From contig CACWPL010000007.1 in the NCBI GenBank assembly GCA_902762785.1, forward strand, positions 1-64,000: 64,000 nucleotides of DNA, in the 5' to 3' direction. Of this stretch, positions 45,612 to 60,474 are shown piece after piece. Made by a program: the position numbers and the translations under genes. This DNA is from an uncultured Ruminococcus sp. GTDB taxonomy: Bacteria; Bacillota; Clostridia; Oscillospirales; Ruminococcaceae. Positions within the stretch are counted from its first letter, which is position 1. The number at the start of each line of letters is the position of its first letter. The notes under the pieces are model-generated. The model was not told the origin of the DNA. It ran no database searches and saw only the letters and a program-made list of their open reading frames with translations.

Positions 45612-45673
45612 TCGGAACAAAGACGTTCATCTTGCGGCACGGCAGCGTGCCGCTGGATGGACGTCTCTTTTTT
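45612..45673 (+). promoter_or_regulatory. pyrG leader attenuator with ANTAR-type hairpin
   Basis: Right at the predicted transcript start, GAAC (45614-45617), loop AAAGAC (45618-45623) and GTTC (45624-45627) form a 4-bp hairpin. The GTTC is also part of the terminator strand AGACGTTCATC (45620-45630), which pairs with GATGGACGTCT (45655-45665) and is followed by C and seven T (45667-45673). The two structures exclude each other. The hairpin is 13 of 14 identical to that of gltB. Confidence 0.7.
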
Positions 45674-45744
45674 TGTCCCGGCCGCGTCAGCGATGGCTAC
45701 CTCACCGCGCGGCTGCGGATGCGATCTGCAGAAGGAGTGGTCAC

Positions 45745-47373
45745 ATGGCAGTCAAGTATATCTTCGTCACGGGCGGCGTGGTGTCCGGCCTTGGAAAGGG
45801 CATCACAGCGGCCTCGCTCGGGCGTCTCCTCAAGGCGCGCGGCCTGAAGGTCGCCGCCCAGAAGCTCGACCCCTACATCAATGTCGACCCCGGCACGATG
45901 AGCCCCTACCAGCACGGCGAGGTCTACGTCACCGAGGACGGCGCCGAGACCGACCTCGACCTCGGCCATTACGAGCGCTTCATCGACGAGGACCTCAACC
46001 GTTTCTCGAACCTCACCACCGGCAAGGTCTACGCCAATGTCCTCCAGAAGGAGCGGCAGGGCGACTATCTCGGGAAGACCGTCCAGATCATCCCGCACAT
46101 CACCGATGAGATCAAGCACTTCATCTACAGTGTCGGTGAGACGGGCAAGGCGGACGTGGTCATCACGGAGATCGGCGGCACCACCGGCGACATCGAGAGC
46201 CAGCCCTTCCTCGAGGCCATCCGCCAGATGCGCCTGGAGGTCGGCCGGGAGAACACGCTCTACATCCATGTGACGCTCGTGCCGTATCTGCGTGCATCGG
46301 GGGAGCACAAGTCCAAGCCGACGCAGCACTCCGTCAAGGAGCTGCAGGGCTTCGGCATCTCCCCGGACATGATCGTCCTGCGTGCCGACGAGCCGATCAC
46401 GGACACGAGCATCTTCAAGAAGATCGCTGGCTTTTGCAATGTCAAGCCGGACTGCGTCATCGAGAACCTGACCCTCCCGAACCTCTACGAGGCGCCCCTC
46501 ATGCTCGAGGAGGCCGGTCTCTCCGGGATCGTCTGCCGTGAGCTGGGACTGGAGACGCCGCCGCCCGACCTGACCGAGTGGCGGGCGCTCTGCCAGCGGA
46601 TCACGTCGCTTTCGGAGACGGTGACGATCGGTCTGGTCGGGAAGTATGTGGCGCTCCACGATGCCTACCTGTCCGTGGCCGAGGCACTGCACCATGCGGG
46701 CTATGACCTCTCGGCCAATGTCCAGATCAAGTGGATCGACTCCGAGACGGTCACGGCGGAAAATGCCGCAGACGTGTTCGCGGACGTGGACGGAATCATC
46801 GTCCCGGGCGGCTTTGGCTCGCGCGGCATCGAAGGCATGATCGAGACGGCGCGCTATGCCCGCACGAACGGCGTCCCGTACCTGGGGATCTGCCTCGGGA
46901 TGCAGATCGCGGTGATCGAGTATGCCCGGAACGGCGCCGGTCTCACGGGTGCCCATTCGCGCGAGTTCGACCCGGATTCGCCGCATCAGGTGATCGGCTT
47001 CATGGACGGGCAGAGCGACAGCATCGAGAAGGGCGGCACGCTCCGGCTCGGCAGCTATCCCTGTCAGATCGCGGACGGCACGCACCTCCTCGCCTGCTAC
47101 GGCACGCCGCGCATCACGGAGCGCCATCGTCACCGCTATGAGTTCGCCAATGCCTACCGCGAGACCCTCGCGAACGCCGGTCTGACCATCTGCGGGACGT
47201 CCCCGGACGGGAGCCTCGTGGAGGCCGTGGAGGTCACAGAGCATCCGTACTACATCGGCGTGCAGTATCACCCGGAGTTCCGTTCGCGTCCGAACCGTCC
47301 GCACCCGCTCTTCATCGGGCTCGTCAGAGCCGCACTTGCCGGAAAGGAGTCGCATCATGAAAGTGAATCATAA
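45745..47373 (+). CDS. pyrG: CTP synthase
   Basis: 542 residues from ATG 45745 behind AAGGAG. N-terminal synthetase domain ([45 protein letters not shown]) and a C-terminal class I glutamine amidotransferase domain with GICLGMQ nucleophile Cys and the HPEF His/Glu pair. Converts UTP to CTP with glutamine-derived ammonia. Preceded by an attenuator; overlaps dapL by 17 bases. Confidence 0.97.
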
Positions 47374-48532
47374 CATCCTCCAGCTCGAGAACAACTACCT
47401 GTTCTCCGAGGTCGCTGCCCGCCTGCGCGCGTTCCAGGCGGAACATCCCGACCGCAAGCTCCTCAAATGCAGCATCGGCGACGTGACACGTCCGCTCCCG
47501 CGGATCATCGCCGATGCGCTCAAGGATGCCGCCGAGGAGATGGCGCACGCCGAGACCTTCCGCGGCTACGGCGCCGAGCAGGGCGAGCCCTTTCTGCGTG
47601 AGGCGGTCGCGCGGTACTACACCAAGCGCGGCCTCACCATCGCCCCGGACGATGTCTTCATCAGCGACGGCGCGAAGAGCGACCTCGGCGATCTCTGCGA
47701 CCTCTTCGATGCCGACAATACCGTCCTCCTGCCCGACCCCGGCTATCCCGTCTACTACGACACGAGCATCATGGCCGGCCGCCGCGTGACCTTCCTCCAT
47801 GGGACGCAGGAGAACGGCTTCCTGCCGATGCCCGATCCCGCGATCGGGGCGGACCTCATCTACCTGTGCTCGCCGAACAATCCCACGGGCGCGGTCTACA
47901 CGCGTGAGCAGCTCGAGGTCTGGGTGCAGTACGCGCTCGACCGGAAGGCGTTGATCCTGTTCGATGCTGCGTATGAGTCCTACATCCGCGACCCCGCGCT
48001 CCCGCACAGCATCTACGAGATCCCCGGTGCCGAGCGCTGCGCGGTCGAGATCAACTCCCTCTCGAAGATGGCAGGCTTCACCGGCGTGCGCTGCGGCTGG
48101 ACGATCGTCCCGCGGACGCTCCTGCTGGACGGCGCCTCGCTGCATGACATGTGGTTCCGTCGGATGTCCACGAAGTACAACGGCACGAGCTACATCATCC
48201 AGCGCGCCGCCGAAAAGGTCTTCACCGACGAGGGACAGGCCGCCGTCCATGAGGACATCGCCTATTACATGGAGAACGCCCACATCCTCCGCGCCGCGCT
48301 CACAAAGGCCGGCATCTGGACGACCGGCGGCGACAATGCCCCCTACATCTGGCTCAAGGCGCCGCACGGTCTGGGGTCGTGGGACTGCTTCGACATGCTC
48401 CTGAACGACTACGCCATCGCCGGGACGCCGGGCGTCGGGTTCGGCACGGCAGGGGAGGGCTATCTGCGGTTCTCCTCCTTCGGCACGCGCGAGACCGTGA
48501 CGGCCGCCGCCAAGCTCCTCGAGACTCTCTGA
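47357..48532 (+). CDS. dapL: LL-diaminopimelate aminotransferase
   Basis: 391 residues from ATG 47357 behind AAAGGAG. Fold I PLP enzyme with [17 protein letters not shown] at the N-terminus, [18 protein letters not shown] and the PLP lysine in [13 protein letters not shown]. Makes LL-diaminopimelate directly from tetrahydrodipicolinate, a lysine and peptidoglycan route found in some Clostridia, plants and Chlamydia. Cotranscribed with pyrG. Confidence 0.94.
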
Positions 48533-48544
48533 TCCGCATAAGAC

Positions 48545-60330: not shown

Positions 60331-60344
60331 CGATGAAGGCTCCT

Positions 60345-60409
60345 ATCTCAATATAACGCTGTGAAGTGACGGCCGGTCCGCCGGCCGTTCGCCCCACAGC
60401 GCCTGAGAT
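60345..60409. repeat. Long nested hairpin between glnA and amt
   Basis: ATCTCA pairs with TGAGAT, CGCTGTG with CACAGCG, and ACGGCCGG with CCGGCCGT around a TCCG loop. No T run follows, so it is not a standard terminator. It may slow polymerase or protect the glnA 3' end. Confidence 0.55.
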
Positions 60410-60433
60410 GGTCTGACATACATATATATAATA

Positions 60434-60474
60434 CAGCAATGGCGCTGGGAGGATCGTTCTCTCGGCGCCTTTTT
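60434..60474 (+). promoter_or_regulatory. amt leader attenuator with ANTAR-type hairpin
   Basis: CAGC (60434-60437), loop AATGGC (60438-60443), GCTG (60444-60447). The GCTG lies in the terminator strand GGCGCTG (60441-60447), which pairs with CGGCGCC (60463-60469) and is followed by TTTTT. A TATAAT at 60427-60432 is too close to be the promoter of this leader, so the start must be upstream, perhaps readthrough from glnA. Confidence 0.65.

Follow-up and report, generated by a model that had tools for sequence, protein, structure and literature searches.

In the EutV/EutW regulon of Enterococcus faecalis an ANTAR protein acts on hairpins with a six-base loop (hexaloop) that carries A at position 1 and G at position 4 (A1/G4), and the 3' arm of the hairpin lies within an intrinsic terminator (PMC3369931, PMC8934654). 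The same elements are found before the genes pyrG, gltB, glnA and amt in a stretch of 64,000 nucleotides from an uncultured Ruminococcus sp. (GenBank assembly GCA_902762785.1, contig CACWPL010000007.1, positions 1 to 64,000), which is called the window below. The EutV system as presented in these papers has two hairpins, a short fixed linker and phosphorylation, whereas the window leaders have one hairpin at the start of the RNA and the ANTAR protein has a receiver without the acceptor Asp. By their sequence the leaders of pyrG, gltB, glnA and amt, and a fifth before pyrC on another contig, are most probably ANTAR-dependent antiterminators of a nitrogen regulon. A preliminary description of this DNA had proposed a local glutamine regulon under one ANTAR regulator, an interpretation that is right in kind and partly supported.

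ANTAR control of nitrogen genes is known already. The ANTAR nitrogen regulons predicted in Desulfotomaculum reducens and D. acetoxidans have ammonium transporter, P-II and glutamate/glutamine synthase targets in common with the window, and the covariance search of the same paper used a dual-hairpin model, unlike the single hairpin seen here; neither CTP synthase nor purF was found by a term search of its main text (PMC3369931). NitR of Clostridium saccharobutylicum is an ANTAR protein that induces the glutamine synthetase (GS) and glutamate synthase (GOGAT) genes under nitrogen limitation by antitermination, as proposed here (Stutz 2007, via PMC6316151), and in the region Clo1313_2030 to 2036 of C. 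thermocellum an ANTAR gene lies beside annotated glutamine synthetase and glutamate synthase genes as in the window, but no leader RNA is part of the description consulted (PMC4676874). In the literature searched, which covered few subscription papers, no description was found of single-hexaloop leaders anchored at the RNA start or of a glutamine-synthetase-like partner of an ANTAR protein, and the single-hexaloop architecture looks new.

Four leaders with one hairpin each

The pyrG gene (45745..47373, + strand), encoding a glutamine-hydrolysing CTP synthase (TIGR00337), is preceded by a promoter with TTGACG and TATAAT spaced by 17 nt (45578..45606, +, 11/12 pattern matches), the hairpin GAAC-AAAGAC-GTTC (45615..45628, +), and an intrinsic terminator whose 5' arm begins inside the hexaloop (45619..45674, +). 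On the other strand gltB, encoding the large subunit of glutamate synthase (53402..57928, -, NF008730), has a TTGACA, 17 nt, TATAAT promoter (58014..58042, -, 12/12 matches), the hairpin GAAC-AAAGGC-GTTC (57992..58005, -) and an intrinsic terminator (57948..58001, -), and is followed by gltD for the small subunit (51915..53399, -, TIGR01317). The glnA gene (58240..60330, +), encoding a type III glutamine synthetase (PF12437, PF18318), has a TTGACA, 17 nt, TATACT promoter (58134..58162, +, 11/12 matches) and the hairpin ACAGC-AAGGGA-GCTGT (58173..58188, +), in which an A-T pair is added to the 4-bp core CAGC/GCTG (58174-58187), and here also the 5' arm of the terminator begins inside the hexaloop (58178..58216, +). 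The hairpin CAGC-AATGGC-GCTG (60434..60447, +) and a terminator (60441..60474, +) precede amt (60490..62280, +), which encodes an ammonium transporter fused to a C-terminal P-II domain (PF00909, PF00543). The hairpins lie where the preliminary description had placed them, except that the one of pyrG starts at 45615 and not at 45614.

All four hairpins have a stem of 4-5 pairs closed by C-G and a loop of the form AANGRN, bearing out the earlier observation of a six-base loop with A1 and G4 in each leader. The hairpins alone fold with -1.6 (pyrG), -1.6 (gltB), -5.4 (glnA) and -3.7 kcal/mol (amt), against -38.5, -29.0, -31.3 and -22.4 kcal/mol for the respective terminators. In all four folds the terminator takes up the 3' arm of the hairpin, and the two structures are therefore mutually exclusive, as had been stated. 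Only tRNAs reach the gathering score of an Rfam family in the window, with no riboswitch or T-box family, and near the pyrG and gltB/glnA leaders none comes close to the threshold, the amt leader being covered by the whole-window scan. A large inverted repeat, GCTGTG...CACAGC around GACGGCCGG...CCGGCCGT and without a T run, is located between glnA and amt (60359-60403).

By default the nascent RNA would form the strong terminator, and transcription would end before pyrG, gltB, glnA, amt and pyrC. Under glutamine or ammonium shortage the ANTAR protein should bind the weak hairpin, which has 4 to 5 bp and the loop C-(AANGRN)-G, so that the 3' arm of the bound hairpin is kept out of the terminator and the RNA polymerase can read through. 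In the common form the hairpin would open the transcript, and one hexaloop would replace the two-hairpin target of EutV, NasR and AmiR.

The distance from the -10 hexamer to the 4-bp stem is 8 to 11 bases in pyrG, gltB and glnA, in agreement with the earlier remark that these hairpins lie near the predicted start. The best promoter of amt has 10/12 matches and a -10 hexamer just one base from the hairpin, so either the promoter call is wrong as drawn or the RNA starts further upstream; in relatives the same spacing is mostly 11 or 12. In a scan that covered the 26 bases before the stem, with a threshold of 9/12, the stem lies 6 to 14 bases past the -10 hexamer in 101 of the 119 leaders with a promoter of at least 9/12 matches, 45 of them at 11. 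Transcription usually starts 6 to 8 bases past the -10 hexamer. The RNA would then enter the stem by about its eighth base, too early for the upstream hairpin of the known two-hairpin target to fit in. Of 172 unique hexaloop-plus-terminator units from the scanned loci, just 3 have a second A..G.. hexaloop hairpin at a distance of 2 to 16 nt upstream, and the pair of hexaloop hairpins with a short linker that is a trait of ANTAR antiterminators is absent here. The preliminary description had seen one clear hairpin per leader, which is correct, but had taken this as a matter of visibility; the single hairpin is instead a regular feature of the leader class.

It is unlikely, given these spacings and the rarity of a second hexaloop, that the leaders are ordinary dual-hexaloop ANTAR targets, with a first hairpin that is degenerate or comes from a longer transcript, and that the architecture is not new. 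Such an explanation could draw on 36 leaders, out of 155 for which a promoter candidate was scored, that have none of at least 9/12 matches within 26 bases and where an upstream first hairpin is possible, and on pyrC, which has upstream room with about 45 nt of RNA ahead of the hairpin in the window's genome. Dual hairpins are also the published form (PMC3369931), and EutV antitermination requires two of them (PMC3369931, PMC8934654), which tells against a switch with one. The EutV binding site has been reduced to one hexaloop, two being kept for antitermination (PMC8934654), and NasR is reported to have an affinity of about 12 uM for a single hairpin (PMC7496416).

Some amt leaders of the genus (L105, L106, L107, L109 and L110) have a terminator tip that is also an A1/G4 hexaloop hairpin, such as ATGC-AAAGAA-GCAT, and two pyrG leaders (L077, L078) have an AGGGAT hexaloop at the tip, by eye. 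The tip hexaloop of such amt leaders (e.g. in genome G034) was considered as a second hairpin and rejected, because by eye none is present in the glnA, gltB and most pyrG leaders. The amt leaders of Ruminococcus flavefaciens and relatives (L197-L217) contain two full hexaloop-terminator units in tandem, CAGC-AAGGGA-GCTG followed by CATACAC-AAAGGG-GTGTATG, an arrangement different from the known side-by-side hairpin pair.

Conservation of the hairpin and its loop

Leaders of glnA, pyrG, amt and gltB were collected from 38 genomes of the same genus, giving a set of 114 (glnA 30 of 43 matches, pyrG 29/30, amt 27/28 and gltB 28/31). Four matches (L092, L114, L128 and L150) were excluded since the gene start is missing from the match, the remaining unused matches have no locus, and L149, with a leader of 32 bases, was kept and scored as a miss. 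The preliminary description had made its case dependent on relatives keeping the hairpin and loop A1/G4, and both are kept: hairpins of at least 4 bp with a hexaloop closed by C-G and carrying A1 and G4 number 109 in the 114 leaders, against 3.96 expected from first-order shuffles (last 200 bases), with a density of 4.8 per kb compared to 0.38 per kb elsewhere in the loci. They are found in gltB (26/28), amt (21/22), pyrG (27/29), all seven close glnA leaders and 16 of the 21 more distant glnA leaders. With the narrower loop C-AANGR the hairpin is present in 160/217 leaders of glnA, gltB, amt and pyrG homologues, within the genus in 26/28 gltB, 21/22 amt, 26/29 pyrG and 7/7 close glnA leaders. 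As the search pattern dictates the loop composition in this count, that composition is no evidence; the evidence comes from the pattern-free genus counts above and from the loop lengths below.

Among C-AANGR-N-G motifs that were not selected on pairing, at least three further pairs form in 191/273 in leaders and in 158/2130 elsewhere in the loci, corresponding to 2.54 and 0.056 paired motifs per kb, a difference of about 45 times. At 190 unique sites, pairing in the three positions beneath the closing pair is seen 157, 161 and 142 times, compared to 102, 106.5 and 82.5 in shuffles. The arm types vary among genes and lineages and are still complementary (CAGC/GCTG, GAAC/GTTC, AAGC/GCTT, AGGC/GCCT, ACAC/GTGT). 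Loops opening with AA.G have six bases in 105 cases, and 4, 5, 7, 8 and 9 bases in 4, 6, 0, 0 and 0 cases; in the genus leaders G4 is present in 105/110 C-closed hexaloop hairpins beginning with AA.

These counts also bear on a simpler explanation, that the loop and arms are conserved merely as parts of an efficient terminator and that no protein uses the small hairpin. In the folds loop A1 and A2 pair with the U-tract of the terminator, which could by itself favour A at these positions. The 5' arm, however, lies outside the terminator yet covaries with the 3' arm, the loop length is fixed at six, G4 is nearly always retained when A1 and A2 are given, and paired motifs are concentrated in the leaders. 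In addition, the glnA leaders of a clade without an ANTAR gene (see below) have kept the terminator arms, by eye, whereas the loop is TCAAGC, AATCGC or lost. We regard this explanation as very improbable.

In the window's own genome the pattern VARCAANGRNGYTB matches 20 sites, nine of them with a stem of at least 4 bp. Five of the nine have an overlapping terminator, with scores of 29.5 to 46, and these are the leaders of pyrG, gltB, glnA, amt and pyrC; the other four have a terminator score of 13 or less, or none. Three matches that pair (L286, L294 and L295) were dismissed since they have no overlapping terminator. The hairpin CAGC-AACGGC-GCTG inside the ANTAR gene (50631-50644, -) is ascribed to chance, because it has no terminator and its sequence shifts with the codons among relatives. 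A wider pattern with 289 matches in this genome was used for no count.

A second set comprised the best 80 of the 569 loci that match the ANTAR alignment in named genomes, from which L223 and L257 were removed as copies of loci in genomes G027 and G001, together with gltB-like matches below 60% identity and leaders shorter than 120 bases. About half of the 80 loci are titled Ruminococcus, and the others include Papillibacter, Agathobaculum, Butyricicoccus, Niameybacter, Fusibacter, Defluviitalea and three spirochaete records. The hairpin-terminator unit is present in 24/26 amt, 19/23 gltB and 17/24 glnA leaders of this set.

A blind pattern, consisting of TATAMT, 7 to 14 bases and then CAGCAANGRNGCTG, was run on 391 Clostridia genomes including the window's own, and gave 42 matches in 40 genomes, while the reversed pattern gave none in the same 391 genomes. 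Thirty of the 42 were inspected: the gene that follows is type III glnA in 16 (7 of these within a single genus), amt in 3 and asnA in 3, and an overlapping terminator with a score of at least 22 is found in 21 of these 22. The exception, L356, has a terminator that scores 18, with a stem that by eye is broken by a bulge. Seven of the 30 were taken as chance (terminator 21.5 or less, or none), and in the last, L338, the terminator precedes a gene judged by eye to encode an amidotransferase. The asnA (aspartate-ammonia ligase) leaders with the promoter-hairpin-terminator unit are L327, L331 and L334.

ANTAR genes and the glutamine-synthetase-like neighbour

The ANTAR gene of the window (50089..50670, -; PF03861, 1.6e-13, 50.7 bits with a cut-off of 27.3) lies in the string gltB-gltD-GS-like-ANTAR-purF, as the preliminary description had said of the gltB operon, and the same gene order is found in R. 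flavefaciens. The string ends with purF, encoding amidophosphoribosyltransferase (48629..50047, -, TIGR01134), and the GS-like gene (50701..51918, -) encodes a glutamine-synthetase-like protein in which active-site residues are replaced and which is a candidate sensor.

An ANTAR gene is present in 27 of the 38 genomes of the genus. A hairpin in any leader is found in all 27 (genome G017 having it before pyrC alone), and in 6 of the 11 others (Fisher p 0.0009), a count that is uneven since the five genomes lacking both ANTAR and hairpin yielded just glnA and pyrC leaders. Within the genus, the more distant glnA leaders have an AANGR hairpin in 15 of 16 cases from ANTAR-bearing genomes and in 0 of 5 cases from genomes without the gene. 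An ANTAR gene was detected in 8 of 15 stretches of 12-20 kb surrounding blind-pattern matches, hand-picked from the 42; three of these eight have it beside pyrG, and seven on the gltB side facing glnA.

The tie to an ANTAR protein that had been proposed is well supported, by gene neighbourhood and by one co-loss, but the regulator need not be a single one, as the window's genome carries two ANTAR genes, the second on another contig beside a GS-like gene of its own. The copy in the gltB operon has a close match (54-100% identity) in 6 of the 27 ANTAR-bearing genomes; the others match it at about 30-35%, those fetched are nearer the second copy, and the same hairpins are present. Since genomes without a close gltB-operon copy still have hairpins, the regulator may be another ANTAR protein than that of the gltB operon.

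Several observations weigh against the assignment to ANTAR. The five genomes without ANTAR and loop form one clade (98/100 support), so their co-loss counts as one event, and it is comparable in the glnA leader alone, as these genomes gave no match to pyrG, gltB or amt. Six genomes (G006, G008, G013, G016, G029 and G036, 57 to 91% complete) have hairpins and no ANTAR gene was found in them; most are incomplete, yet G008 is 91% complete. ANTAR was likewise not found in 7 of the 15 regions of 12-20 kb around blind-pattern matches. Tyr164 and Arg168 of EutV correspond to His and Glu in the window protein. Within the genus the hairpin is absent from both leaders of a third glnA type and present in 2/5 of a second amt type, and outside the genus it is found in 3/30 pyrG leaders, so that the pyrG hairpin is mainly a trait of the window's genus.

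The genomes and neighbourhoods with hairpins where no ANTAR gene was found would also fit an action of some other RNA-binding factor, a metabolite or a leader peptide on the hairpin. This is hardly probable, as the loop obeys the published ANTAR rule (A1, G4), no Rfam family except tRNA reaches its threshold in the window, and many Clostridia have ANTAR in one gene cluster with these leaders; the glnA and amt hairpins are moreover near the eut consensus AGCAANGRRGCUY given in PMC3369931.

The receiver of the window ANTAR protein is degenerate. It has no match to Pfam Response_reg, and the acceptor Asp, whose position was assigned against TorR and EutV, is His in this protein, and of 15 ANTAR proteins that were aligned 14 have Asn or His there; the acidic pocket is also absent according to the alignment. 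The usual switching by phosphorylation should therefore be impossible. The GS-like neighbour does not have the conserved active-site residues of an active type I glutamine synthetase, since the first Glu of GPELEF, the Asn of NGSGMH, the Glu of GYEAP, the Arg of QNRSS and the Glu of IELRC are missing, positions which we take to be catalytic. At least 3 of 11 active-site residues are lost in 59 of 77 GS-like proteins, and two or fewer in the other 18.

Known ANTAR proteins can be controlled by a partner, AmiR being under the ligand-binding protein AmiC (AmiR structure, PDB 1qo0). NasT is similarly under the ligand-binding protein NasS (PMC3795266). By analogy with AmiC-AmiR and NasS-NasT, the GS-like protein would be a sensor of glutamine that probably releases or sequesters ANTAR, with about even chances of being so; AmiC and NasS are partners of the substrate-binding type, whereas the partner here would be a GS-like protein. 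The adjacency of the two genes is consistent with such a role: among the best 80 of 569 loci, 64 have a GS-like gene that precedes ANTAR by no more than 1.5 kb. It is quite possible, though somewhat less than an even chance, that ANTAR control is correct but the sensor is another, the signal coming via the P-II domain fused to Amt, via glnA or via a kinase. Sixteen of the same 80 loci have no GS-like gene just upstream, several having type III glnA instead, and the 18 GS-like proteins mentioned above retain at least 9 of the 11 active-site residues; the adjacency in the majority of loci and the replaced acceptor Asp argue for the GS-like protein. In Treponema and Spirochaetaceae records (L233, L235 and L255) GS-like/ANTAR pairs are found that are near the clostridial ones, perhaps transferred.

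Probable pyrimidine and purine targets

The fifth target is located on contig C9 near position 8000 (L284, L296:4001-4014), where the hairpin AAGC-AATGAC-GCTT and an overlapping terminator precede pyrC-pyrF-carA-carB. Unlike the other four, this hairpin lies about 50 bases past the -10 hexamer. In 30 of the 33 pyrC matches of the genus the leader was inspected, and the hairpin is present in 8, while many others have a similar terminator without a hexaloop. This suggests that pyrimidine synthesis has been drawn into the regulon in the window's lineage. CarA, PyrG and PurF all use glutamine, which is consistent with the glutamine regulon that had been proposed, but with pyrC-pyrF-carA-carB on another contig the regulon is not local.

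Eleven pyrC leaders without a hexaloop (L309-L311, L313, L314, L316, L318, L320, L323, L325 and L326) have another common hairpin, CAATCTGA..GGCACAGATTG, upstream of the terminator, perhaps belonging to a different pyrimidine control. A CTP-dependent reiterative start at pyrG is known from Bacillus, and was set aside here because the start region has no GGG run. In genome G049, from a relative of the same taxonomic order, purF has the unit in a leader of its own, with promoter, hexaloop and terminator immediately before the gene (L369:9964-9996, -).

Clostridia may possess a separate class of ANTAR switch, a proposal to which we give just under an even chance: one hexaloop at the 5' end would suffice, an unphosphorylatable ANTAR protein would receive its signal from a dead neighbouring glutamine synthetase, and pyrG and pyrC-pyrF-carA-carB would have been captured in the window's lineage. 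Searches with a two-hairpin model would be expected to miss these leaders. A natural and widespread class with a single hexaloop at the RNA start makes the two-hexaloop requirement of EutV testable, and a likely nitrogen control of many gut Clostridia can now be named, in which a dead enzyme may serve as glutamine sensor and the glutamine status would be linked to pyrimidine and purine synthesis.

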